Below, one piece after another: positions 2,321-51,367 of a stretch of 64,000 bases of DNA. The stretch covers positions 434,001 through 498,000 of the forward strand of contig JAIWNI010000006.1 of the NCBI GenBank assembly GCA_025331435.1, written 5' to 3'. Both the position numbers and the translations under genes were made by a program. Every line of letters begins with the position of its first letter. The first letter of the stretch is position 1. Below the pieces are notes generated by a model. The model was given only the letters and a program-made list of their open reading frames with translations. It was not told the origin of the DNA and did not search any database. The stretch comes from Choanephora cucurbitarum. Lineage: Eukaryota > Mucoromycota > Mucoromycetes > Mucorales > Choanephoraceae.

Positions 2321-4632
2321 ATGTCTGTTCAACTTATCAGAAAAGCAGTTCCAGGCGTAGACGAAGCCATTGTGGAGTATATTGATGGTTATCTAAGAGA
2401 GAACGACTTTGAAGACGATGAAGATGCCATCGCTGACTTTGTCAAGCCTATCCTGCTTGATGCAGGTGGTGAAGAAAATAAGATCAACGAACTATGCGAG
2501 CACTTGTCCGAAGTAATCCTGTCCAACAAAAAGTCCTCAGCACCTGCCAAACTATCCAAGTTGGAACACTCAGTGACGATCGGCAACCAAAGTGGCCTTT
2601 CAGCTACTGCCACCTTGGGTCGAGGCACTGTCGATCTTGAACACTCTACAGGTCGTCGTGTTCAAAGTCAGGTTAACCAAGAAAAGTTGCGTAAGGCAGA
2701 AGCCAAGATTGCTGCCAAGATGGCTAAGCGTAACGAAAAGAACAACACTCGTGTTGAATACGAAGCTTCTCGTTTATTGAGCGAACAAAAGGCTTTGCAA
2801 GACGAATACAAACTTTACAACCCTATTTTGGATTATACTACCACCAAGGGAAAGAACAAGGATATCAAGATCGAAAACTTCGATATTTCTTTTGCTGGTC
2901 GTCGTATCTTGACAGATGCAAACTTGACACTCGCTTTTGGAAGACGTTATGGTGTGGTTGGTAAGAACGGTATTGGTAAATCCACCTTGTTGAGAGCTAT
3001 GTCTCGTCGTGAAATTGCTGTGCCTCAACACATCTCTATCCTTTATGTCGAGCAAGAAGTAAGTTGTGATTTGTGGGACTGTTTGACCTTCATACTAAAA
3101 TGCAAATAGGTGCATGGCGATGATACACCTGCTATTGAAATGGTTCTTCGTGCCGATGTCTGGCGTGAACATTTGCTTGAGAAAGAGCGTAACTTGTCTA
3201 GCAGAATCAACACAATTGAATCTGCCCAAGCAGAAGATGAATTGACTGAGGAAGAAAAGAAGCAATTGGAGGCTGAAAAGGATCAATTGAATACTGAACT
3301 TAAGGAAGTCTTCTCCAAGTTGTCTGATATTGAAAGTGATAAGGCTGAAAGTAAGGCTTCTGCTATCTTGGCTGGTCTTGGTTTCGATAACTCTCAGCAA
3401 AAGAGACCCACAAGAGAATTCTCTGGTGGTTGGAGAATGAGAATTTCTCTCGCCCGTGCTTTGTTTTGTCAACCTGATGTACTTATGCTTGATGAACCTG
3501 ATAACATGTTGGATGTACGTAATATATGAGAAAAAAAAGAACAAGGACTATAAGGAAACTAACTTTGATTCTCTTTTTTTTTTAAAAAAAAAAGATCCCT
3601 GCTATTGTATGGTTGGAAAACTACCTTCAAACATGGCCAAATACATTGTTGGTTGTTTCTCACGATAGAGAGTTTTTGGATGAAGTGGCTACTGATATTC
3701 TGTATATGCACTCTGAAAAATTGGAATACTATAAGGGTAACTTCTCTAACTTCAACGGTACCAAAGATGAACGTCGTAAGGCCCAACTTAGAGAATACGA
3801 ATCTCAACTTCAATACCGTAAGCATCTTCAAGACTTCATTGACCGTTGGAGATACAATGCCAAGCGTGCTCCTCAAGCCCAATCCAAAATTAAGATTCTT
3901 GAAAAGTTACCTGCCCTGGAACCCCCAGAAGAAGAGAAATTGGTTACCTTCCAATTCCCTGACCCTGAAGCCCTTTCACCTCCTATCCTTCAAATGTCTG
4001 AAGTCACTTTTGGCTACAGTCCTGATAAGACAATTATCCGTAACATCAACATTGATCTCAGAATGGACTCCCGTATCGCTATTGTGGGTCCTAACGGTGC
4101 CGGTAAATCTACTATGTTGAAGTTGTTGACAGAAGAAAACAAACCTTCTTCAGGTCTTGTTCATAGAAACGGCCGTCTTCGTATTGCTTACTTTACACAA
4201 CACCATATTGATCAGCTGGATCTTACAAAGAATGCCGTGGGTTTCATGGCAGATAGATTCCCTGGTAAGACGGAAGAAGAATACCGTCGTCATTTGGGTT
4301 CATTTGGTATTACCGGTATGGTTGGTCTTCAGGTGATGAAGACCTTGTCTGGTGGTCAAAAATCGCGTGTCTCTTTTGCTTGTCTTAGCATGCAAAACCC
4401 TCATGTCTTGGTTCTTGATGAACCTACTAATCACTTGGATATGGAATCCATGGATGCTTTACAGGACGCATTGGGCCGTTACAAGGGTGGTGTCATTATT
4501 GTTTCTCACGATGAACGCTTTATTAACACCGTCTGCAATGAAATCTGGATTTGTGAAGGTGGTGTGCTCAAGAAGTTCTCCGGTACAATCAAAGATTATA
4601 AGGCTATTATCTGCCCTAAAGATGCCCCATAA
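2321..4632 (+). CDS. GCN20: ABCF ATPase of the Gcn20/ABCF3 type
   Basis: Soluble twin-cassette ATPase. Yeast Gcn20 works with Gcn1 on ribosomes to activate the eIF2-alpha kinase Gcn2 during amino-acid shortage. Exons 2321-3058, 3110-3514, 3595-4632 give 726 residues (yeast Gcn20 is 752). An N-terminal helical region of about 190 residues (MSVQLIRKAVPGVDEAIVEY) precedes ABC1, with Walker A GKNGIGKST near residue 213 and signature FSGGW near 350, and ABC2, with Walker A GPNGAGKST near 545, signature LSGGQ near 632 and DEPTNHLD. There is no membrane domain. The ABC1 Walker B region reads DEPDNMLD where DEPTNMLD is usual. The ATG at 2321 is used because the in-frame upstream codons back to 2204 do not resemble the family and lie in a pyrimidine-rich leader. 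Confidence 0.95.
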
Positions 4633-11306: not shown

Positions 11307-12960
11307 ATGGAAGCCTCAACCTCTTCTTTTGTCATATTCTCAGGTGGATCAGCCTGTAATCATATTTTAGATAGTTTTCAAAAGACAGGTGCCAACGAAG
11401 TTAGTTACATTCTAGGAATTTCTGACAATGGTGGATCCACCGTAAGATCATCTTTATACTCTAATTCACTATCCCTTAATAAAGTCAAAATAATAACAAC
11501 AACACTATGTATAGAGTGAACTTTTACGAGTATTGGGTGGTCCCAGTGTAGGTGATCTTCGATCTCGACTGATTCGTCTAATGGATATCTTGACCGAAAA
11601 TACCTCAAAAGAAATGAAAGCCATCAAAACCTTGTTGAGCTACCGCTTGCCTGTGGATAAGCGCAACCATCAAAGAGTGCGCGATGAATGGGCTTTGATT
11701 GTTGAAGGCCGTCATAGGTAGTAAACAAACAATAAGGAGAATCAATAGATTACTTATGTTTATTTTAGTCTTTGGAATGATATATCTGTCGAAAAAAGAG
11801 AAGCCATTCGTGGATTTTTGACTTTGTTTGATTTCGAGATCCTAAAGAGAGCACACAAGCGATTCAATTTTTGCAACGGAAGTATAGGCAACTTCTTTCT
11901 TACAGGAGCTCGTCTGTTTACTGGTTCACTTGAGGCAGCCATTTTTTTGTTTGCTTCTATCATCGGTATCTCATGTGTCCCAACATCTGTTGTACCAGTC
12001 ATCAACACAAATCAAACTGCCACTATTGCTGCTTGCCTGATGAATGGAGAGACATTGGTGGGTCAGTGCGAAATATCACACCCCTCACCCTGTCAGCAGA
12101 AGAACAATAGAAAGCAAGGCATTTTGACACCAGCCCGAAAAAGAATCAACCCTATTGACGCATTTTGCTATTTTGAAGACCCAATCAACCTAAAAGCAAC
12201 CGAAGAAGAAGATGAAAACATCAACCTCTTCTTCTCAAAACAAGTAGATGAAAAACTCAACTCACCCATCGATCGCATCTACTACATCAATGAATTTGGA
12301 CAGGAAATTTATCCCGTGCCTAACCCAAAGGTCATCGGCCACTTGTCCAGCAAAAAAACACTTGTGTACTCCATCGGATCTCTGTATACTTCGCTCATTC
12401 CATGTCTTGTTCTGCGTGGTGTAGGCAATGCAATAGTTCAGTCACATTCACTGAAGCACAAGATCCTGTTGCTAAACGGAACTAACGATCGTGAGACAAG
12501 TGATTATACTGCTCTTGATTTCATTAACGCAATTACCAATGCACTAAATGAGAGTCAAAGAATAGATGCACGCCGCGCATTCTATGAATCATGCGATGAT
12601 GATGACGATCAGGAGGAAATACCTGATTACGTCTCAAGTAGGACCAGCAGTATCTCTAGTACTACACCTCATACCCCACCTTCTTATATGTCTCATCTCT
12701 CAGCTGTAGGGAGTATACCAGCCTCTCCTTCTCAACGCTATCCCCCATTTCCTCATAATGCATTCTATCCGAGTTCCGCTTCCTCATTTATTACACATAT
12801 GATCTATCTTGATAACAGCGCCATCCCTGTAGATGTTGAAGCTATTGAAAGATTAGGTATTCAATGTGTCTGCATTCAAGGTGCTACATCTGCTACAGGA
12901 GAACCTATTTATAGTCAAACCTCGTTTGCTCACGTCATTGAATCTATTGTATATAGCTAA
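11307..12960 (+). CDS. CofD/YvcK-fold protein (UPF0052-like, yeast YNL011C type)
   Basis: Exons 11307-11441, 11515-11717, 11769-12960, 509 residues. The N-terminus has the nucleotide-binding signature of the CofD-like family: FSGGSACNHILDSF then ISDNGGST, and after intron 1 SELLRVLGGPSVGDLRSRL. The last part (NAIVQSHSLKHKILLLNG and DFINAITNAL) is also typical. Bacterial relatives are 2-phospho-L-lactate transferase (CofD) and the cell-wall/metabolism factor YvcK. The biochemical role of the fungal branch is not established, so no reaction is assigned. A serine/threonine/proline-rich low-complexity insert of about 75 residues sits before the C-terminal strand. No signal peptide; cytosolic location is likely. 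Confidence 0.88.
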
Positions 12961-20008: not shown

Positions 20009-22090
20009 ATGAACAAAAATTATAGATTATCCCAGAGTTATTCAGGGAACATTGGTGAAGAAGATCAATCCCCTAATCTACAGCGCTATCATACCAATGG
20101 AAGTCGATATAGCAGCATTCAGGACAATGCATTCAACGCATCTAGAAGAGATTCTTTACGGTCTATGAGCTATCAGTCCACCATCGAAAGTGCTGAATTA
20201 CCTTATGAACCAGAAGCAACACCATTGCCAAAGATGCAAATGTTTGTTGTGTTTTTGATATTGGTCAGTGAGCCATTGACTTCTACTGTTTTGTTTCCTT
20301 TTATTTACTTTATGGTATGTCGATCTCTCAATTCTTGCTTTTACAAGACATTTATTTCTTATTGTATAAGGTCAAAGATTTACTTTCTACTGGAGATGAA
20401 AAAGAAATTGGCACTTATGCAGGCTTGATTAGTAAGTTTATTCTGGTATTTGAAAAAATGAATGACCCTAGTTAACAATAAAATGCAGCTTCCATGTTTT
20501 TCGTAGCTCAATTCTTTACCGCTATTTCTTGGGGAAAGGTATCTGACCGGATAGGAAGAAGGCCTGTATTGCTGATTGGTTTGATCGGTAATACGATTTC
20601 CTCTTGTCTATTTGGTCTTAGTAAGAGTCTATGGTGGGCTATGGCTTCAAGAGCTCTTTGTGGTACTATGAATGGTAATGGAGGGGTTGCTCGTAGCTTA
20701 GTGAGTGAGATAACAGACAGAACAAACAAAGCCAAAGCATTCTCCATCTTTGGATTTTGTTGGGGTGCTGGTCTGATAGGTAGGGTTATTGTATTTTCTC
20801 AATCTGCATATTTTTATTTAAAAACTTACATCTCTGTTTGTTTATTTACCGCATAATAATATAATTGTAATCAGCTGGTAAGTTTACAACACGAATGACC
20901 GCAGATTAATTCTAACAGTTTCAACATTTAGGTCCTGCATTAGGTAAAAAGTTATATAAATACGAAAAAAAAAGAAAAAGACAATTGACATTAGATTAGG
21001 TGGTTATCTTTCTAGACCAGCAGAACAATTTCCAGGAATATTTGGCAATTGTGTATTTTTGAAAGAATACCCTTATTTTTTACCATGTTTCATATCAGCT
21101 TGTGGAAGTTTCGTTGGATTTTTGACTGGTTATTTCTATCTTGAAGAATCTAATCCTCGGGTCCTGGCTGAAAAAAGACAGAGCAGTCAACATGAAGGAG
21201 AAGCTACTAGTCTGCTCAAATCTACTTCCACTCTACAACGAACAAACTCGTTGTTTATGATCACCAAAGTATCTTATATCGTCATCCTTTCTTATGTGTA
21301 AGTCTATGTCCATTCAAACCAAAGTGACTATTAACCGTATACATATATTAGAGTCTTTGGGTTTCATTCGATGGTCTTTGACGAAGTGTTGCCACTCTAT
21401 TTCCTAGCTCCTAGTCATGCAGGTGGCCTTGGCATTCGCAGTGCTGATTTTGCGAAGGCGCTTTCTATATTTGGCATTAACCAGCTGTTTATTCAGTTTG
21501 TGATCTATCCACGATTGTCCACCCGGTTTGACACATTAACTCTTTTACGTGTAGCTTATTTTGCATTTATCCCTGTCTACTTTCTGTTCCCCGAATTGAC
21601 TACTGTGCTGAAGTCTATGGCTCAAGGTAGTCCTTATGGTGAGCATGGATGGGCATTAACTTACGCCTACTACTTTTTGCTCTTTATACGGTTTTTTGGT
21701 AACAGTATAGCATTCACATGTATTGGTGTGTTGGTAAGTTAGGAATCATTCTATTGATTCGCTCTTCATTTATTGATGTGTCATCACTTAGGTAAGTACA
21801 TCTGCAGCACCTGAGATTATAGGTGTAGTCAATGGGTAAGTTTAGTTTATTGATATGCTGTAGGATACTAACTCTTCATTAGTGTATGTGTTTCCTGTCT
21901 GTCGCTTGTGCGTGCTTTGGGACCTGCAGTAGGTGGTACACTATGGTCATTTTCTTTAAGAGACGGTAATCCTTTCCCATTGGATCGTCATATGGTGTAT
22001 TATCTGCTAGGTCTGTTAGCTGTCTTTAGTTTCTTTCAAAGTGGTGCTATCCCAAGAGCTATTGCAGTTGGTGGCCGAAGAAAACATTAA
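20009..22090 (+). CDS. Major facilitator superfamily transporter (ZIFL/YCR023C-like)
   Basis: Twelve-span membrane transporter; substrate unknown. Exons 20009-20314, 20371-20431, 20489-20779, 20875-20877 (3 nt), 20932-20943 (12 nt), 21000-21297, 21352-21733, 21792-21835, 21883-22090; 534 residues. A hydrophilic N-tail of about 75 residues precedes span 1 (MFVVFLILVSEPLTSTVLFP). The MFS motif A is clear (GKVSDRIGRRPVLLIG), as are SRALCGTMNGN in span 4 and the GPALGG motif of span 5 made by the micro-exons. A second half-signature reads RALGPAVGGTLWSFSL. Without the 3-nt exon the frame is kept but one residue before GPALGG is lost. The related ZIFL-type transporters are linked to metal or drug export, which is only a hint here. 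Confidence 0.88.
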
Positions 22091-24830: not shown

Positions 24831-27800
24831 TCATTCGTTTGCAGTGGTTTGAATTATAGACATTTTTCTAAACTTTTCCAAAACAGAATACATTGTTTGT
24901 TTTTTCTTCTTACTGCTTGGCTTCTTGATGACTTTTTCTTGCTCTTTTGCTTCAATGGACTGCATCATCTGAGTGTTGGATAGGCGATCCATGGTTGGTC
25001 TCTTAGTAGTTTCAACATGGTCAAAGTCTATTAAAGTCATATAGACTAAATGGCGATGAGCATGAGACTGACGAAGCTTGAGGGATACACGGACATGATG
25101 GAACAAGTTGAATTCGATTGGATGAGGCAAATCAGCCGATGTGACCTTGATATGCGTAGGCATATTGACCTCAATCTGACAGTTTGGTATGGATTCGTCT
25201 AAATAAGTGTGAGCTAACAGTAATTTATCTACATATGACATGATCACTTTACTGCCTGTATCTGTGCCTGAAATCAATGAGAGTGGGATGTGTGGCTTTC
25301 CATCTTTTTCCTTAAGATAGACAGGCCCTTTTAGTCCAAGTCTAAATTGAGTCATGAATTGCTGTTGCTTGTTCTTTGTGTATATATTTCCTATTTACCT
25401 TGGTACAAACACATAGAATCCGTTCGATCTTATTTCAGAAATAATGCCTGTTTCAATTAAAGGATTCTCCTCTGAACTCTACACACAATCACATAAATAC
25501 GCTGTTTTATCGGCCCCAAAACAACTTACATTCTGAAGTACATAAAGACTTTGAAACAACTCTGTAGAATCCTATGTGCAAAAGTATGAGCTCGAGTGTA
25601 TCTAGTTTCTTTTTCCTTTGCCTACCCTTTGAGCGAATTTAGATTCTCTTGATTTCATATTAAGGTTTTCGCAAATGTCAGCAATTGTTCTGGCTTTAGA
25701 CATCATAGATCCTCGTTCTTCAACATCCTTCATGGCTGTTGGGTCACCAACACACATCAATAGTTGTCTGTGGGCCACTACGTCTGCATAACGACGGATA
25801 GGAGACTATAAATTTAGACGATCAATGCCAATGTTCGATTTTGTGTGTTCTGTTTTACCGTAAAATGTGTATAAAATTCGAGTGCAAGACCATAATGATA
25901 ATATTCATTGACAGCATGATGGCCAGAGGAAATGTAACTAGCTTCATTCATAGCAATAGTAGCCATAACTTTGATCAACTTGGCAATTTCAGGGTCATCT
26001 TTGCAACCTTCGGTAATCCTCTTTAATGAGTCGGCAAGCGCTCTGTTGGAAGAGAAATCAACGGAAAATCCCTAAGAGAATAATATGTTAGTTTCTCTCT
26101 TTGATTTATTGACATGATATATAAACATACTTTGCTCTCTGCTGCCTTTACTAGTCGGTCAAATTGTTGGGATGAAGGTGAGGGATGATGTCTAAGGAGA
26201 GCCGAATCTTTGAATCCATCATAGATTCGTCTACCTACAGAAGCGTTGGCTAAAATCATAGCCTCAGCTACTAAACCATGGATTTCCATACTAGCTTTAG
26301 GAAGTAAAAAAGCGAAAAAAGAATATATGGTTAAGGATGGGTTTGTTTTTCAGCCTTTGTAAGCGCAATATATATATGCGTATATCAGAAAAAGGATATT
26401 AATATCAGTGATCTTCTTTTGATCAGTAATTTTGAACTTGATTTCAGATCCTTCTAACTCCAAGGCACCTTTAGCTAAACGTCTGTCCTAGAGGAAGTAG
26501 ATGATTATTGAACTACTACTTAACATGACGAGTAATCCTTTGTCCTTACTCGAATCACTCGAAGTACTTCTGCCAATCGAATAACTTTAGGCTTCAACTT
26601 CTTACATAAAGAAGGTTCTATCGTACAAATATGTTAGTCATCATTCACTTGTCTTTTGCTTTTGACTAAAGACTGTACCTAAGCCTGTGGCAGCAGATTC
26701 CCCGTCTAATAATTGTTGTGCTTGCTCATATTCCATTTCGCAACTGGATTTGATCACTGTTCTACCAAACCAAGTATCGATCACATTGTAGTCTTTATCC
26801 ATAGTCCAAATAACCGAGACGGCATAACGATCTACTTGATGACGAAGTGAACAGACACGTTCACTAAGTACTGAAGGAAGCATATCAAATCTTCTGTCTG
26901 CTAGATAAACTGTGGTACCCCTTAAGATATAAGCCATTTAACAAAAACCGTTTCTTGTTTATCTCTTTGTTTCTAAATGAACTTACCTTGACCTTGCTTC
27001 CAGATCAGTCATATAATTCTCCTTTACGAAATAGCTTACATCAGCAATATGTACACCAAGCTCTAAATTGCCATTCTCCAAATCCTTTATGGAAAGTGCA
27101 TCTACAAATTCAATTAGTATTAGTCAAAGAACAATTGATGAGAAACAAATTATGCATTGTACCATCAATATCCTGACAATTAGGCGGATCAATACTAAAG
27201 ACCGTAAGGTCTCTCAAATCGCGTCTTTGTTTGATTTCGTCCTAGATATATAAAAAAATTCATTTAGTACACATCTTTTCTTAAGTGTCCATGAGGTTTG
27301 AATGACTACCTTTTCGGCGCGCCAAGGCTGTTCAGAACTATCAATTGGCATCTCATTTAAAGAGGCCTGGCTGAACCCCTGAGTTGCTTGCGAGACAGAG
27401 ATGGCATGTTCAACTAGAATAGCAGATATCTCAGTGTCTAACTGATGGATAGGGCCTAATGAGCGTACAAAATGACCATTTGGATATTGCGAAGAGATGG
27501 GCCTATAGAACTCATTACTATTTCATTTTGGGGGTGCATGTCTCTCTCTTTTCTGTTTACCAATTATCTATACGGACAACAATACGTTGGTTCTCAATTA
27601 ACTTAACATCATGGTATCTGATTCTAATCTTCGGAATCACAGGATCCAAAGGGATTGCTAAATGGATAGATCCCCCAGTCTCTAAGCTATCCTCTTGAAG
27701 TGTAGCTACATAAGATCGCCAATTGCGATTCAGAATACCAACCACACGACCTGTAGGTTGATCTGACAGAGTGCTGCTCATAAATCGGTCCTCCTCGAAC

Positions 27801-29130
27801 TCTTTGTGGATACAGAGATATAAGTGGTGCTGATTGGCTAATAGAGAATGATACATACCATCATCTGCATTACTACTGTCAAATGCTATTTCACTGGATA
27901 CCATAGTCCAGTTCTTTTCCGAAAACAATTCTACGACCACACTATCTCCATGAACTGAATTCATTCACTCGAGTCAGATAAAAGATGCTTGAGATGCGAA
28001 AGTTGAGAAAATAATATTTACCTGCTCGGTTTCTATTTTCGTTACCGACCACAAGGATATCTTTGCCCTGATAGCTAATGTAAGCTTGGTCTCGGCTGTC
28101 TTTTCTACAACGCAATGTGCCTGAGAGATAACGGCCTGATTTGATGCCTACTTCTAATTCATCCATCGATTTATACTATCAAACCAGCCATTCCTTTGGT
28201 CAGCCTCAAGATTAGTGTCTCTATTCATCATATCTATTACCTCCTTGTATCCTGCTACAGCTGTACTATTGCCCTTTTCCCCATTTGACTGTTTTGATGC
28301 AATACGAATACGACCATCATCCGTTTCATCCAAGACAACTTCTGCCAAAACTTGCACTAAGTTTTGTAGCAAATGACTCTCTTTCCAATAGGTGTCCAAA
28401 TACTGCTTCATTGTCATTACAGTAACACCCTCCAGGGATGGATCTGTATGTGTCTCAGACAACAAAATTATACGCTTGTTGTGGCCCAAATGTTTGTAAT
28501 ACCAAGAAGCCAATTGACATAGTGCTTCCCATTCGCGTTCAGCACCTGTTTGAAGAGGCGAACGCATAATTTTGGTATGTTGAAAGATTTCATTGTAAAA
28601 CATCACACTCTTTTTTCTAGAATCATTTGTGATCTGGCGCAGTTTTCGATAGGTTTTATGTTTGTCGTGCTGTTGAAGCTATACACACACAAAGTCAATC
28701 GTTGGGAATAACATTTTGGTTGGAATGCGACCTACATGAATGGTCACAGTTTGACTCAAGATAATGCCTGTCATTTCATCTTGTTCTAATATCTCAAGAT
28801 AACGCATGATTACCTATCATATCAAACTCAATTATGATTGCTTCTCACTCAAACTAACTACTATTCATACCGAAATATCTGGAATAATATAATGGTCTAC
28901 AGTAGCACTCAGTAGTGCCTGATGACCCTGATTAGGACATTGCTGACATGCTTCTGACAAACATGGTATGTCTGTACGTAAATATTCTATTCAAAAAATG
29001 TATAAAGTTACGCGTCACTTAAGGACAATGAGAATTCCCTCCTTTTTTTTTTCTTACGCTCTCTCACGAGCTTGATGATAGCATTGCTCTTAGTTTTTTT
29101 ATAGAAGGCTCGATCAGTCCTGGCTGTCAT
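24831..29130 (-). CDS. DIS3L: DIS3-like exonuclease 1 (cytoplasmic exosome 3'-5' RNase)
   Basis: RNase II/R family catalytic subunit of the cytoplasmic exosome. Eighteen exons: 29130-29058, 28986-28871, 28813-28736, 28678-28241, 28175-28022, 27954-27561, 27502-27310, 27241-27163, 27101-26987, 26920-26679, 26617-26550, 26487-26400, 26303-26131, 26071-25859, 25805-25626, 25571-25530, 25478-25399, 25341-24831; 1078 residues (human DIS3L 1054). Order: CR3-like start ([12 protein letters not shown]), PIN-like domain, cold-shock domains, RNB domain with the Asp cluster [13 protein letters not shown] near residue 500 and [12 protein letters not shown]1 domain, C-tail [10 protein letters not shown] typical of DIS3L. 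The PIN domain keeps only one acidic residue (HYIIPDIS), so the DIS3 endonuclease should be absent. Intron 12 is AT-AC. ATG 29130 is preferred over 29226, as homologs begin just before [14 protein letters not shown]. Confidence 0.95.
26304..26399 (-). other. U12-type AT-AC intron in DIS3L
   Basis: A 96-nt minus-strand intron with no GT donor in the needed interval. It begins ATATCCTTT, an exact match to the minor-spliceosome 5' splice site, carries the U12 branch-point-like TCCTTAAC at 26337-26330, and ends TTTTTTAC. Removing it joins KITDI to [10 protein letters not shown] in frame (phase 1) and gives the expected DIS3L sequence. An alternative AG end nine bases later would delete three residues. 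The branch-to-end distance (about 27 nt) is a little long for this class. Confidence 0.88.
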
Positions 29131-30266: not shown

Positions 30267-31993
30267 ATGTTCTGTGCTAGTAAAGTGAAATCAACCAAAA
30301 GATCCAACCTTTTCTAACCCACTTCATCTAGTTTCTGGAGAAGCGCCTAAGCAGCCTGTTGTTTCCCTCAAATCAGGAAACGTCTTTGAAAAGAATCTAC
30401 TCGAAAAGTTTGTGTCAGAGCATGGTCGAGATCCCATCAACAATGAGGAAATGACAGTGGAAGACATTCTTGAGCTCAAGACAAGTAACGTTCATTACCG
30501 CTTTCACTATTCTTAAACTTAACTTATTCTTTAGCACCCGAAACTGTCAAGCCTCGTCCTCCCAAGCTGTCATCTGTGCCTTCTATTCTATCTACCCTTC
30601 AAGATGAGTGGGACAGTGTCATGCTTGAGTCATTCACTCTGAAGCAACAATACCAACAAGTGCGTCAGGAATTATCCCATGCCCTTTACCAAAACGATGC
30701 TGCTACTCGTGTTATTGCTCGCTTAAAGAAAGAGCGTGACGCTGCCCGAGAGTATGTTGTAGAAATTTGATTTGACTTGATTCTCGTTTTAACGCGTTTC
30801 TATTTCAATTAGAGCTCTTGCCAATGTACAAGCTCACTTAGGTGTTTCTGCTACTGCCCCTACTACTACTGCTGCTCCTGTTGAAGAATCAATGGAAGTA
30901 GATGGTGGTTTACCTGAAGAAGTAGCTGAGAAGATAACCAAGACAAGTGAAGAGTAAATGATATAAGGAACATAAACAATACAAATGTTGAACTTACAAT
31001 TTGCTTTATGATAGGTTATCTTCTGCACGTCGTCAAAAGAAGAAGCCACCAGTAGAATACGCCACTGTTGATTCTATTAAGGCATATCAACAAACCAACA
31101 CAATTCCTTCACTTCACTCTGCACGTTCAGCAGGCATTACTGCCTTAGATGTCAGCGGTCAATTGGTTTTGACAGGTGGTAACGATAAGCATGTCCAAGT
31201 TTACGACAAGTCTGAGGATAAAGTCATTGCCAATTTAGGCGGACACACCAAGAAAATCACATCAGTTCAGTTTAGAGATGAGAGCCACGATGTATTCATC
31301 AGTGGTAGTCAAGATAAACATGTGCGTGTTTGGGTCACTAGCGAGAAGACAGGCTATGCTCTTGGCCACAATATCAATGCTCACAAGGGTGAAGTAACCC
31401 AAGTGCATGTTCATCCCTCCAAAGATTATTTCGTTAGTGCTGGTCTGGATGCCAAATGGTCTCTGTATGACTTTGAATCTGCTAAGCCTATTGTTGAGAC
31501 ATTTAACAAGGATGACGCTGGTTATTCTTCCATTCAATTCCACCCTGATGGTTTAATTCTCGGTGCAGGTACTACAGATGGTGTTGTTCAAATTTGGGAT
31601 GTCAAGTCGCAAAAGGTAGCTGCTCGATTTGAGGGTCATGCAGGTCATGTGAAGGCAATGGCCTTTTCTGAAAATGGTTACATTTTGGCTACTGCCTCAG
31701 AAGATAACTTGATCAAAATCTGGGATCTTCGTAAGTTAGCTAACACAAAGACATTCACTTTGGATGATAACTATAAGGTCAACACACTTTCTTTTGATCC
31801 TTATGGTCAATTCCTTGCTGTGGGTGGTACCGATGTACGAGTCTTGAAGGCCAAGGACGGTTCTCACATCGCTGCCTTTAACGAGAATAACGGTACTGAT
31901 ATCACTGGTCTGCATTGGTCTCCTCTTGCTGAGGAACTTGTCAGTTCTGGTTTGGACCGTGCTATTCGTTTCTATGGTACTGCTAGCCAATAA
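30267..31993 (+). CDS. PRP19: Pre-mRNA-processing factor 19 (U-box E3 ubiquitin ligase)
   Basis: Core of the NineTeen complex that activates the spliceosome; it also acts in DNA repair. Exons 30267-30279 (13 nt), 30332-30484, 30535-30751, 30813-30953, 31015-31993; 500 residues, the usual length (yeast 503). The U-box starts at residue 1 ([20 protein letters not shown]) and is completed by [14 protein letters not shown]. The tetramerising coiled coil follows ([20 protein letters not shown]). The C-terminal half is a seven-blade WD40 propeller (for example [13 protein letters not shown] and [18 protein letters not shown]). The tiny first exon encodes only MFCA plus one base, but the U-box requires it. 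Confidence 0.95.
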
Positions 31994-37203: not shown

Positions 37204-40200
37204 ATGACTTATCATAAATATGTGGTGACGGCGCAAAAACCAACTGCAACCCAGCTCTCAATCAAAGGCTCCTTTATATCACCTCATGAGACAAACCTTA
37301 TATTAGGGTGAATTTTATTTTCTCTTATTTTATGGCTCAGTAGATCCAGTTGGCTGATCAACTTTTCTTATGCTCACTTAGGAAAGGAACGCGTATTGAA
37401 GTATACACTTTGACGCCTGACGGCCTGAAACCCACAATAGAGTTCAGCGTGCATGGAACTATAATTGCCCTGAGGTTATATATACCTAAAGTAGAGAAAA
37501 CAAGAAGAAAAACAACATAATTCTAGTCTAACAAACTTTTTTTTTTTAGGACAAAGATAAAGCTTCTTTATTTCTACTGACCTCCAGACACAAATACTGT
37601 ACTCTCTCCTATGATATTTTACAACAGCAAATAATCACAGAATCATCAGGCGAAATTGGATTTCCTGGTCAACCGCGTAAAGAGACGATTGATTCAACAC
37701 TTGTTGTAGATGCTTCTTGTAGATACTTTGCGACGTCCCTTTACGATTCTACAGTCACCATCATCATTCCAGATATATTCAAATCAAAAGACTATGTCCC
37801 CACATCTCAGCCTTTGCGCAAAATATCATTAAGAGCAAAAGATGGTAAACGGCGTCAACAACAGGATCATATCATACAAAATCCACCCGATTATATAAAC
37901 ATTAGGTATCATTCAAGAAGCCAACATATTTCCTGTTGGTTGACCATTCTAACATAATTTTTTGCTATTTAAGCCTTCATGACAAACATATTGTATCACT
38001 AGCCTTTCTGAATGGTGATTCACCTACACCTACCTTGTTGATATTGTACGATGATCCATTAGGACGACGCTATCTTCAACAGTTTACACTAGATACCAAA
38101 AATAGACAATTAGTTCCTGGAGATGTTTTGATGGATCACTTTGAATCTGATGCTAATCTGCTTATATCAATGCCTGCTCTACTCGGAGGTGTCGTATTAA
38201 TTGCTGGGAAATTCATTCGATACCTCAAACCAAATCAACCACCTATTGCTATTGGCATTCGACCTTCTACTATTACTAGGTAGTTCAATCATAACTAAGC
38301 CTTGATTATTTTCACTTTTGGCTGACATCTTTCTGAAAATAGCTTCTCTATCATGAATGAACAAGGAACACGTATTTTGTTAGGAGATGCAGAAGGCTTG
38401 TTGTATTTGCTCAATTTGCATATATTCGAAAACAAAGTGAACTCCTTATCGTTTATACCACTTGGATCGGTAACGTATATAGCATGATATTTTGTACTAG
38501 ACTTAGGTCTGACTTACAAAGGGATAATTGCATCAGATTTCTGCACCTTCATGCTTGACTTATTTGGGCAACGATGTTGTCTTTGTTGGATCAACAGTAG
38601 CAGATTCACAGATCATTCATATCAGACGTACAAGTGTATCCGAGACAGGCGAAACATTAAGTGTGATTGATGAGCTACCTAATCTGGGGCCCATCACTGA
38701 TTTTTGCGTAGCTGATCTGGATAAGCAAGGACAGACACAACTCATCACTTGCTCTGGTGTTGGTAAAGATAGTTCACTCAGAATTATTCGAAATGGTGTT
38801 GGATTGAATGAACTGGCAGCAATTCAGATCAGCGGAGTGAAAGGCGTTTGGGCTTTACGCCCTTCTTTTGAAGAAACATTTGACGACATGCTTGTCTTAT
38901 CTTTTGTCAACCAGACACGCTTATTGGCATTAAGAGGCAATGGAATGACGCAGCTAGAGTCTCATTCAGCACTTGATCTTCATGCTAGGACTTTGATTGT
39001 CAGTAACGTGAAAAATGATATGTTGATTCAAGTAACAGACAAAAGCATACGATTGATGTCTTCTCATAACCATGGACAACTGATTGACCAATGGACTCCT
39101 GATCAGCCTAACACACATATCACTGTAGCCAGTGTTAATCCTACTCAGTGTGTGATTTCAACTGGATTTGGCAAATTGTTAGCATTTGAACTTAGCCAAC
39201 AAGGACTACGTTCGATTGGGTAAGCGATTTCTCTTTCTTCGAAGTCGGGAATTGACTCTCTCTCTCTTGTTGCTTTTACAGATCAGCTCAACTGGATAAT
39301 GAAGTATCATGCATTGACATTAGTCCTATTGATACTGAGCATCCTTACCAGTCTAATGTTGTTGCTGTTGGTACATGGAGTAATGTGGGCGTTTGTCTGT
39401 TAACCTTACCTGACCTTAGATTCATTACTGAAGAAAAGCTGGCAGGAACAATCATGCCTCGCTCTTTGCTAATGGCCCAATTTGAAAACATCTGTTACCT
39501 GTTGGTTGCCTTAGGTGATGGTCAATTCTATAATTTCAAGTTGGATGTACGAGAAGGAAAATTGTTTGATAAGAAGCGCTCCTTCTTGGGCAAACTTCCT
39601 ATTCAACTTGCTCGGTTTACCTCAAATGGTACAACACACGTCTTTGCCGCTTCAGACAAACCTAGTGTGATCCATAGCAGAAACAAAAAGCTGATCTACT
39701 CAAGTGTCAATCTAAAAGAAGTACGCCATGTTTCCTCCTTCAATAGCCTTTCGTTCCCTGATGCAGTAGCGTTAGCTACTAAAGATGGATTGATAATTGG
39801 ACAGATGGAAGAGATCCAAAAGCTGCACATCACCAAGATTCCTACAAACGACACACCAAGACGAATTGCTTATCAAGAAGCCTCCCGTACCTTTGGTCTA
39901 GTGACAGAAAGAGTTGTTTCCGAATCTTATACTCGCAGCACCACAACTGGTGGATTTGAGATTCTAGATGATCAATCCTTTAACGGTAAACATATTGGCT
40001 TATTGTCGATAATCGAGCTAACTAGCAAGGCATGTTCTTTATAGTACTTGATCGAGTTTATTTTCAACAGTTTGAAAGACCCACAGCTGCTATTTCGATT
40101 ACATTTGAAAACGATCATAACGAATACTACGTGTTGGCCACTGGTAAAGAAACAGACGAATATGAAAACAACAGCATTGGCCGAATCTGTATTTTTCAAG

Positions 40201-46802: not shown

Positions 46803-48937
46803 ATGCAAGCACCTGTCCTTGTTATGAGTGAGTTTTGGCAACAAAGACTTAACTGAGTTACTTATACCCGCTTTATTAAGATACCAACATGGAGCGCGAG
46901 TCTGGTCGCAAGGCTCAACTCTCTAATATTACTGCTGCTAAGGTAATTATATATATAACAAAAAAAGGGGGAGGCGAAGGAAATTGGGAAGCGACCTTAT
47001 AACATCAAAGAGGCAGCAAAAAAATACTCAACACATACTCTCCTATGTTAGACAGTAGCTGATGTCATCCGTACCTGTCTTGGTCCCAGATCTATGTTGA
47101 AGATGTTGCTTGATCCTATGGGTGGCATTTTGTTGACTAACGATGGTAATGCCATCCTTCGTGAAATCGAAGTTGATCATCCTGCTGCTAAAAGTATGAT
47201 TGAGCTTTCAAGAACACAAGATGAAGAAGTTGGTGATGGTACAACTAGTGTCATCATCCTTGGTAAGTGCGGTCATCTCGTGGATTAATCAACAAGGTGT
47301 GTTCATCTTTTTTTTTCTGTAGCTGGTGAAGTTCTTGCTGGTGCTTTGCCTCATGTTCAAAACAACATTCACCCCATTGTGATTATCAGCGCTTTCAAAA
47401 AGGCCCTTGAAGATGCTTTGCAGATTGTTGAAGAGATCTCTACTCCTGTTGATGTCCAAAATACTGAAGAAATGTTGACTCTCATCAAGTCTTCTATTGG
47501 CACAAAATTCACCAGCAACTGGAGCGAACTGATGTGTAAACTTGCTTTAGATGCTGTGCGTTGTGTTGCTATTGAAGAAGAAAGCACCGGTAAGACTGAA
47601 GTTGACATTAAGCGTTATGCTCGTGTTGAAAAGGTAATTAGTATATGTGTGTATGTGAGAGTATGTGAAACTATCTCAGTTGCTGACATAACCATTGGTA
47701 GATTCCTGGTGGTGAGATTGAACAATCTCAAGTCTTAGATGGTATCATCTTAAACAAGGATGTCACCCATCCCAAGATGCGTCGTCGTATTGAAAACCCT
47801 CGTGTTATCTTGTTGGACTGTCCTCTTGAATACAAAAAGGGTGAATCTCAGACTAACATTGAAATCTCAAAGGAAGCTGACTGGAACCGTATTCTTCAGA
47901 TTGAAGAAGAACAAGTTAAAGCTATGTGTGACAAGATCATTTCTTTAAAGCCTGATTTGGTCTTTACTGAAAAGGGTGTTTCTGGTAAAAAAAAAAAAGA
48001 AAGAAAGCGAGAGTGTTTTTTAGTCCGAGGATACTTATTATTTTGTCTTTCTCTAGATCTTGCACAACACTATTTTGTTAAAGCCAACATCACAGCTATT
48101 CGTCGTGTTCGTAAGACAGACAACAACCGTATTGCTCGTGCCGTTGGTGCCACTATTGTCAACCGTGTTGATGACCTTCGCGAATCTGATGTTGGTACAA
48201 AGTGTGGTCTTTTCAACATTGACAAGATTGGTGACGAATACTTTACTTTCTTGACTCAATGTCAAGATCCTAAGGCTTGTTCTATCATTTTGCGTGGTCC
48301 TAGTAAAGATATCATTAATGAAGTTGAACGCAACCTTCAAGATGCCATGTGTGTTGCTCGTAACGTCTTCTACAGTGCTAAATTAGCTCCTGGTGGTGGT
48401 GCTACAGAAATGGCTGTGGCTGTCAAATTAGAAGAGAAGGCCAAGTTGATTGAAGGCGTTGAGCAATGGCCTTATAGATCCGTTGCTGAAGCCATGGAAG
48501 TCATTCCTCGTACACTTATTCAAAACTGTGGTGGTAATGCCATCAAGACTCTTACACAACTTAGAGCCAAGCATGCTACTGGTGAGCATTCATTTGGTAT
48601 TGATGGTGAAGCTGGTAAGGTTGTTGACATGAAGGATTATGGTGTTTGGGAACCTACTGCCGTAAAGATCCAAACTATCAAGACTGCTATTGAAGTAAGT
48701 ACAAAACCAAACACAAAGCATGACATGTAACTTATGTTCCCTCATAGTCTGCATGCTTATTGTTACGTGTTGATGATATTGTTTCTGGTCTTTCAAAGAA
48801 TAAGGGCCCTGCTCCCCAGGGTGGTGCTGAACAACAAGAGGTAAATTAACATACAACAATTTCTTTAAAACAGATAAGAAAGCAGCGGGTACTAATTATG
48901 TCTGTTACTCTAGATGATGGAACAACCACAAATGTAA
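46803..48937 (+). CDS. CCT3: T-complex protein 1 subunit gamma (CCT/TRiC chaperonin)
   Basis: Cytosolic group II chaperonin subunit folding actin, tubulin and WD40 proteins. Exons 46803-46827, 46881-46942, 47052-47262, 47323-47633, 47702-47984, 48057-48694, 48748-48840, 48914-48937; 548 residues. It opens [21 protein letters not shown], the gamma-subunit start. ATPase motifs are intact: [43 protein letters not shown] and [13 protein letters not shown]. Gamma-specific [20 protein letters not shown] is present. The first and last exons are very short (25 and 24 nt); the last encodes only MMEQPQM. Confidence 0.96.
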
Positions 48938-49171: not shown

Positions 49172-51367
49172 TTAGTGAACATGAGGGGAATGGACCAAAG
49201 GAACATATTCAGGAATAAACATGGAGTTTTCAACTACTTCTTGCAAGGTCTCATCTTCTCTTAATACAGCAGTAGCAACACCCTCTTCATAGGCGACTTC
49301 ACAGACACGAGTACCTACAGCTAAGGCGACATCACGCAATTGTTTTACACCAGGGAAAAGAGTACCTTCCTTCAATTGTTGAGGACTGGCCATATCAGCA
49401 ATAGTCTTGGCCGTTTCCAAGAACATGTTGGGAGTAACACGGCTAGCACGAGAAACGGTGATACCGAGACCAAGACCAGGGAAACTGTAGGAGTTGTTAC
49501 ATTGATTAGTACGTCCCAAGCGACCGTTAGGTAAAGGAACATCAGCAAAGGGACTACCAGAAGCAAAAATAGCACGACCTTCAGTCCACTTGAAGGCCTG
49601 TTCAGCAGTACATTCAGCACGTGTATCGGGATTACTCAAGGGGAAAACAATAGGCTTTTCTTGATGCTTAGCCATACTACGAATAGCCTTTTCGGAGAAC
49701 ACGCCAGGAACACCAGTTAATCCTAGAATGACAGTAGGCTTAACACGCTCAATGACTTCTTCCAAGCTAAGACGATCAGGCAAGTTGGACTTCACATAAC
49801 ATTGTTGACGTTCATCCAGTTTGGTGATTCTAGGTTGGCCCCCAATGATATCTTGGGGATCATGACTTGTCTTGTCAGGATTACCAAGCAAACCATGTTG
49901 ATCCAACATGTAAATACGAGAATATGCTTCTTCACGAGACTTGACCTTGCCTTGAGCTACCATAGCATCAATGATGCCTTCGCAAACTCCTACACCAGCA
50001 GAACCAGCGCCAACACAGACAATACGTTCATCAGCAAGAGCATCAGTGGGAAGGTTACGAGCCTTAAGAGAGGCAAGAATACCAGCCAAAGTAATAGCAG
50101 AGGTAGATTGAATATCATCGTTAAAGCAAGTGATCTTGTCCTTGTCTATATATATATATTGATGTTAGTCTATACGTGCTTCTAGGCCAATTACACATTA
50201 ACTTACACTTATTTAATAAATTGTAAGCATGAGGATACTTGAAATCTTCAAATTGAATGAGAGCATCTAAAATAAAATTAAAAGTCAGTCAGCATAAGCA
50301 GGTGGCACTAAAAATAGAAGAAAAAGACAGAAAACCCAATACTTACTTGGCCATCTACTTTGAACAGCAGTAACCCATTCATCTACAAATGAGTAGTACT
50401 CATCGCCATCTAATCGAGGGTGACCCATGCCGAGGTAGAGGGGATCGTTTAATAGGCTTTCGTTGTTTGTGCCTACATCCAAGACAACAGGTAAAACAGA
50501 ACGAGGACGAATACCACCAGCAGCAACGTACTAATGAAGTAGTCAGAAAAAGGAACTGATTTCTCGGAAGAAAATCAATCTCGGATCACTTACCAAACTG
50601 AGTTTACCAATTGGGATTTGCATACCATTAGCCCCTAAATCACCCAAACCAAGAACACGAGAACCGTCTGTAACAACAATAACATCCACTTCATCATGAG
50701 GCCAGTTATGAACCATGGCAGACATTGCACCTCTATCTTGAGATGAAAAGTACATACCACGAGAACGACGGTAGATTGAATGCGACATTAAGCATGCTTC
50801 ACCCACTTTTTGTTCATCGCGGGAAAATCAGGGTAAACATTGAGTCGCAGTTGGAAATTTTTTTATTCTTTACTTTACCTGTAGGTGTATAAATAATACC
50901 AGCCAATTCATCCAAATAAGTAATTAAAAGCTTATAGAATAATGTTTCATTTCGGTCTTGAAGAGCAGTCAAAAACACAAACTTGGCAAGTGGCGTATCT
51001 AAGGCATCCAGGTTACGCTTAATACGGAGCAACTGTTTGTCCATCTCCTGACAACGAGGAGGCACTAAACCACGAAGCGAGAGGCGTTCTCTTTCTGCAA
51101 GACTGAATGCAGTACCTTATGTATGCATATCAGCTTAGATCAAAATAATCTCTTTTCATGAAAAACAATTTTCTTACCTTTTGAGAGCAAGGGATCATGA
51201 ATGATGTTGACACCTCTCAAAGGAGTTAGTTGAACTGTCTTGTCTCTTCTGGGATCAGAACCAAGGCCAATGGCAGAGGCAGGAAGGCCATAATGACGAC
51301 GGTAAAGATTGCGTCCTTGACTCATGATTTGAGGCAATGACTTGCGCATGGTATTCGAAGATAGCAT
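49172..51367 (-). CDS. Malic enzyme, probably mitochondrial NAD(P)-dependent
   Basis: Oxidative decarboxylation of malate to pyruvate. Exons 51367-51178, 51115-50879, 50805-50594, 50530-50347, 50266-50207, 50145-49172; 618 residues. The N-terminus ([20 protein letters not shown]) is basic, serine-rich and free of acidic residues, fitting a mitochondrial target peptide. Family motifs: [51 protein letters not shown] (usual DDIQGT, here S for G), the nucleotide site [16 protein letters not shown], and [13 protein letters not shown] with [16 protein letters not shown]. The active-site Tyr and Lys regions are kept. Cofactor preference cannot be set from sequence by eye. In oleaginous Mucorales such enzymes are tied to NADPH supply for lipid synthesis, which may or may not apply. 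Confidence 0.93.

Follow-up and report, generated by a model that had tools for sequence, protein, structure and literature searches.

The DIS3L gene of the mucoralean fungus Choanephora cucurbitarum very probably contains an ordinary, functional U12-type (minor) AT-AC spliceosomal intron, judging from its sequence. The intron lies at 26304..26399 on the minus strand of the window, the 64,000-nt stretch of contig JAIWNI010000006.1 analysed here. The U12-type assignment draws on donor and branch motifs at the sole position that yields the family protein, together with snRNA candidates in the genome that are able to pair with these motifs. The features of the gene are as follows, in window coordinates.

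24831..29130, minus strand: DIS3L gene, 20 exons and 19 introns, CDS of 3126 nt, 1041 aa
26400..26487, minus strand: exon 13, upstream of the AT-AC intron
26304..26399, minus strand: AT-AC intron 13, 96 nt, phase 1, codon 661
26389..26399, minus strand: 5' splice site ATATCCTTTTT, able to form 8 contiguous pairs, one of them G-U, with the 5' end of the U11 candidate and likewise with U6atac
26330..26337, minus strand: branch-site motif TCCTTAAC, able to pair with GUAAGGA in the U12 candidate
26304..26305, minus strand: AC 3' end, the first AC past the branch motif, with no AG between
26131..26303, minus strand: exon 14, downstream of the AT-AC intron
27802..27858, minus strand: stop-free 57-nt GT-AG intron, absent from the 18-exon model
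25199..25252, minus strand: stop-free 54-nt GT-AG intron, absent from the 18-exon model

The intron coordinates, donor, branch motif and AC end given by an earlier sequence-only reading all proved exact. The donor expected of U12-type AT-AC introns, /ATATCCTT, is present as ATATCCTTTTT at 26399..26389, and a branch motif near UCCUUAAC is present as TCCTTAAC at 26337..26330. By inspection of the sequence, no GT occurs within 26399..26304 and the sole AG of the intron precedes the branch motif. The distance from the last A of the branch motif to the intron end is 27 nt, which is long for a U12 intron, the usual branch-to-acceptor distance being about 10-20 nt. Across the window, the donor 9-mer was seen three times (1.44 expected) and the branch pattern nine times (11.7 expected); neither is rare alone, and the strength lies in donor, branch and exact position taken together.

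Removal of the intron fuses GATATTA to TTCCTAAA, and the resulting 14 residues align gap-free over the junction with PDB 9g8n (DIS3-like exonuclease 1). When we enumerated splice pairs with any dinucleotides and introns of at least 20 nt within the 357 nt that run from exon 13 through the intron to the end of exon 14, 26399/26304 was the only pair that yielded the 87-aa stretch of the annotated C. cucurbitarum protein. Frame restoration was rejected as proof, since 88 stop-free GT-AG, GC-AG or AT-AC pairs restore the frame in this 357-nt stretch, 54 of them AT-AC. The earlier claim that intron removal restores phase and family sequence is thus upheld by gap-free agreement with both 9g8n and C. 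cucurbitarum, the frame alone being weak evidence. If the intron is retained, a stop follows 45 codons downstream of the exon 13 start; this stop falls within the RNB domain, and unspliced transcripts therefore cannot encode the full nuclease.

The identification of the gene as a fungal DIS3L was borne out by database comparisons. In the PDB, the protein matched DIS3-like exonuclease 1 best (677 bits; 9g8n, E 3.6e-202), followed by exonuclease RRP44 (538 bits), both chains being presumably human, and by DIS3-like exonuclease 2 (306 bits or less). Pfam detected an RNB domain (E 5.5e-97) plus Dis3-type cold-shock domains. Among the best 120 of 7924 protein-database matches, C. cucurbitarum came first (98% over the searched part) and Blakeslea trispora second (90%), and the nearest relatives were mucoralean DIS3L proteins. 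From its family, the product is predicted to act as a cytoplasmic exosome-bound 3'-5' exonuclease.

The sequence-only reading had counted 18 exons with a total divisible by three. The divisibility stands (3237 nt, 1078 aa, no inner stop), but alignment with the C. cucurbitarum protein revealed two extra GT-AG introns and hence 20 exons. These had been overlooked because their lengths are divisible by three and the frame runs open through both; likewise, the 18-exon total is a multiple of three only since the missed introns (57 and 54 nt) lack in-frame stops. The corrected 1041-aa model is 98.4% identical, with zero gaps, over all 865 aa of the C. cucurbitarum record. Of its 19 introns, 18 are GT-AG, 51-71 nt long and with a GTA donor in every case, and one is AT-AC and 96 nt long. 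The Pfam, PDB and protein-database searches and the homolog alignment used the 18-exon protein, in which the AT-AC intron is number 12 instead of 13.

For the comparison of the junction among relatives, we aligned 120 listed homologs, 38 of them grouped by name as Mucorales/Umbelopsidales, and scored a junction as disrupted when at least 6 residues were lost or gained no more than 12 residues from it. The AT-AC junction was disrupted in 9 of the 38 models, whereas 531 tests at 15 other junctions gave 10 disruptions (Fisher p = 6e-7), or 14 in 569 tests once the neighbouring junction was included (p = 2e-6); both p values are rough because related species were treated as independent. The 4 lesions at that neighbouring junction fall in 4 of the same 9 proteins. 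The other 29 models pass the threshold and are uninformative on the intron type at this junction.

Four models from three genera, those of Benjaminiella poitrasii (P0012), Apophysomyces sp. BC1015 (P0024), Circinella minor (P0028) and Apophysomyces ossiformis (P0030), read TDINIL at the junction, exactly the reading that A/ATATCCTT, the unspliced donor of the window, would give. P0024 is a tenth Mucorales model, under the threshold yet with the same sign. In P0008, P0010, P0011, P0022, P0029 and P0032, most of the exon is lost or a GT-AG-like shortcut is taken. Among the other 82 homologs, only that of Basidiobolus meristosporus (P0091) is disrupted at the junction, and the B. ranarum homolog (P0074), from the same genus, is intact; 249 minor introns are given for B. 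meristosporus in extracts of PMC10639083. Since public DIS3L models often break at the same residue, which we read as gene finders being unable to model AT-AC, the intron is probably widely shared in Mucorales. It is perhaps older than the order. Errors at the junction are probable in the models of Rhizopus arrhizus (P0022), Mucor lusitanicus (P0011), Phycomyces blakesleeanus (P0029) and in some other models. Against such wide sharing, U4atac and U12 are reported in extracts of PMC5604411 as not present in Apophysomyces variabilis assemblies, which does not favour active minor splicing in Apophysomyces, the source of two of the TDINIL models.

We then turn to the minor spliceosome itself, whose snRNAs were sought with Rfam models across the genome (33.4 Mb, 357 contigs). 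One candidate was found for each of the four: U6atac (69 bits) and U11 (67.5 bits) above the Rfam cut-off, and U4atac (39.3 bits, E 6e-4) and U12 (37.9 bits, E 1e-4) below their cut-offs of 53. The window alone gave no Rfam match above cut-off. The 5' AAAAAGGG of the U11 candidate can pair with the donor stretch UCCUUUUU over 8 contiguous positions with one G-U, and AGAAAGGA of the U6atac candidate can pair with the same stretch over 8, also with one G-U. UAAGGAU of the U12 candidate can pair with the branch AUCCUUA over 7 contiguous positions, and the U4atac and U6atac candidates can form 14 contiguous pairs, three of them G-U; all four figures are plain counts of base complementarity, and these possible pairings support the candidates. 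The U11 candidate measures 194 nt against a 134-position model, with the surplus mostly in the first stem. An SmY match at the U4atac locus (26.4 bits, cut-off 39) was set aside because it overlaps the U4atac 3' end.

Among proteins, the genome encodes a 65K-like protein, whose best PDB match was RNA-binding protein 40 (3egn, E 1e-19; which we take to be RNPC3), with RBM41 near at 5e-18. It also encodes a 59K-like protein with a PDCD7 (U11-59K) match above cut-off, for which a PDB search returned no match. U11-48K (PF05253), whose sole control match was archaeal, and CENATAC (PF14968), which had no positive control, were not found in the genome, and neither absence is taken as proven. The check proposed earlier, a search for the four minor snRNAs and the U11/U12-specific proteins, thus produced candidates for all the RNAs and, of the proteins, a 65K-like and a 59K-like one but no 48K. 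The claim that this genome keeps a minor spliceosome gains support from the four snRNA candidates and their predicted pairings.

In minor splicing, U11 and U12 bind donor and branch jointly; once U4atac/U6atac/U5 have joined, U11 gives way to U6atac, and the intron is released as a lariat. At DIS3L, the 5' splice site would base-pair with U11 and the branch site with U12; U6atac, brought with U4atac, would take over from U11 at the donor, and the intron would be excised at the first AC past the branch.

A U2-type GT-AG splice of 26437..26291, whether as the real product or as a substantial alternative, would make the protein 17 residues shorter. This pair does restore the frame, and exactly such a shortcut, reading EINMEIHG, occurs in two annotated proteins, those of Helicostylum pulchrum (P0008) and Mucor saturninus (P0010). 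The donor of the pair, GTTCAA, is however poor, all 18 GT donors of DIS3L start with GTA, and the 17 residues that the splice drops are present in PDB DIS3-like exonuclease 1 as well as in the proteins of C. cucurbitarum and Blakeslea. Gene finders restricted to GT-AG would be forced into a splice of this kind, and we consider its use in the cell highly improbable.

Removal of the AT-AC intron by the major (U2) spliceosome has a precedent in the 85 "major AT-AC introns or related subtypes" of human data (extracts of PMC8280824), but ATATCCTTTTT and TCCTTAAC match the U12 donor and branch consensus in the consulted part of PMC2846911, and snRNA candidates able to pair with both are present in the genome, which leaves this route a negligible chance. 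Hardly any probability attaches to a pseudogene or an assembly error either: we found no point in favour of one at the DIS3L stretch, and the 1041-aa frame is open, its 98.4% gapless identity is to a separate C. cucurbitarum record, and four further species from three genera have proteins that imply the same donor. The U12-type AT-AC identity put forward earlier for this intron is thus supported by donor, branch, exact position and snRNA candidates alike.

Searching the genome for the donor and branch patterns as a pair gave 19 matches at a gap of 25-55 (the backwards pattern gave 3, a decoy with the branch reversed 2) and 10 at a gap of 56-86 (5 backwards). Twenty-two of these 29 matches were inspected for open flanks joining in one phase and for the appearance of the signals; 11 were accepted and 9 rejected by eye, with L033 and L037 neither accepted nor rejected. 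Left uninspected were L017, L018, L026, L028, L030, L040 and L041, whose matched stretches are the same or nearly the same as inspected ones. The accepted introns are L015, L021, L023, L024, L025, L027, L031 (the DIS3L intron), L032, L038, L042 and L043. Ten are AT-AC and one is GT-AG, a ratio that the strict search pattern may bias; among human minor introns roughly a quarter are AT-AC, and the share here is far higher. If kept, 9 of the 11 would bring an in-frame stop, the exceptions being L015 and L032. The branch-to-acceptor distance is 11-19 nt in nine of the ten other accepted introns and 29 nt or more in one, L032 (LSM12), where the acceptor is ambiguous and in-frame read-through is possible. 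A long distance is thus common to two AT-AC introns, those of LSM12 and DIS3L (27 nt).

The joined flanks of nine of the ten other accepted introns, all but L042, were scanned against Pfam. In four, a match above cut-off spanned the joined site (DCP2, prefoldin, LSM12 and VPS11), and L027 gave alpha/beta hydrolase families. L015 and L021 had only below-cut-off matches, and L023 and L038 had none; a TBC and a cullin match were seen below the cut-off. PDB matches were obtained for DCP2, prefoldin subunit 5 (PFDN5) and protein phosphatase methylesterase 1; the DCP2 and PFDN5 joins are gap-free against their PDB chains, and the PDB methylesterase has two extra residues beside the join. The DCP2 case is L025 (G000:C201:70266-70326, minus strand), an AT-AC minor intron whose join is gap-free with mRNA decapping complex subunit 2 (5j3t). 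The L038 and L042 genes contain a similar stretch (DWVPPER / EWVPPDR) with an AT-AC intron a few residues past it in each, and this shared place suggests that the intron may predate a duplication.

A census by donor alone was rejected: RTATCCTTTTT had 220 matches against 81 backwards, and we put this excess down mostly to base composition, since in the 30 loci fetched of the 220 the best branch score was hardly above that of a control stretch. CCTTAAC lay downstream in three of those 30, L056 (the L015 site), L057 and L078. In L057 and L078, the donor ATATCCTTTTT has CCTTAAC 60-66 nt downstream, which makes the 11 accepted introns a lower count; our estimate for the whole genome ranges from roughly ten minor introns to a few tens.

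DIS3L (the exosome nuclease) and DCP2 (the decapping enzyme) each carry an AT-AC intron among the 11 accepted, and each of these introns, if kept, brings an in-frame stop. It is conceivable, although we think it unlikely, that the minor spliceosome of Mucorales may act as a gate on the two arms of cytoplasmic mRNA decay, with the twist that splicing would proceed without a recognisable CENATAC. Most human A-type minor introns depend on CENATAC (extracts of PMC8280824), and the minor set here is almost all AT-AC. If the idea is true, slower minor splicing would reduce decapping and 3'-5' decay at the same time and prolong the life of mRNAs.

The DIS3L AT-AC intron is real and well supported, and minor splicing in Mucorales is already published. 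Rhizopus oryzae and Phycomyces blakesleeanus belong to the same fungal order as Choanephora. Minor introns of both are described in PMC2846911, and in the consulted part of that paper they resemble those found here in donor and branch consensus, in comprising AT-AC and GT-AG subtypes and in the presence of minor snRNAs; DIS3L is not named there. About half of the Phycomyces introns are AT-AC (8-9 AT-AC, 8-12 GT-AG, same extracts) against 10 of 11 here, where the strict pattern may introduce a bias. Extracts of PMC10639083 give 205 minor introns and all four minor snRNAs for Rhizophagus irregularis; Rhizophagus and Basidiobolus share with Choanephora the possession of minor introns, but are reported to have far more of them and lie outside Mucorales, in Glomeromycota and Zoopagomycota. 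PMC4133162 describes minor snRNAs for Lichtheimia corymbifera and further basal fungi; in its extracts, the third stem of U12 is withered and its last stem short in all basal fungi studied, features that fit and may explain the low U12 score here. In the same extracts, U4atac was not found in Lichtheimia, whereas this genome has a candidate able to form 14 contiguous pairs with U6atac, and Lichtheimia U11 has an extended last stem, whereas the extra length of our U11 candidate is mostly in the first. The earlier statement that minor introns are lost in most fungi and known mainly from early branches somewhat overstates their rarity, given the reports in these extracts of minor introns in Rhizopus, Phycomyces, Rhizophagus and Basidiobolus and of minor snRNAs in Lichtheimia and further basal fungi.

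We found no publication on a minor intron in DIS3L, which the supplementary tables of large surveys, outside our search, may list, nor any on splicing in Choanephora. In the parts seen of the literature pairing DIS3L with U12-type or minor introns, only DIS3L2/Dis3l2 appeared, either among the references or named as a sex-biased gene. The DIS3L intron is a clean, checkable fungal AT-AC minor intron, and the small minor-intron set of one genome is suited to asking why a whole spliceosome is retained.

Elsewhere in the window, DIS3L is adjoined divergently by PRP19, presumably a spliceosome-associated ubiquitin ligase (30992-31990, plus strand; Prp19 WD40 domain, E 6.4e-104), whose start by eye seems to lie near 30300. 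Pfam also identified an ABC ATPase (3586-4629, plus), a CofD-like protein (11749-12957, plus), an MFS transporter (20482-20853, plus), an RSE1/DDB1/CPSF1-type propeller (38528-39220, plus), a TCP-1/cpn60 chaperonin (47702-48727, plus) and a malic enzyme (49175-50164, minus).
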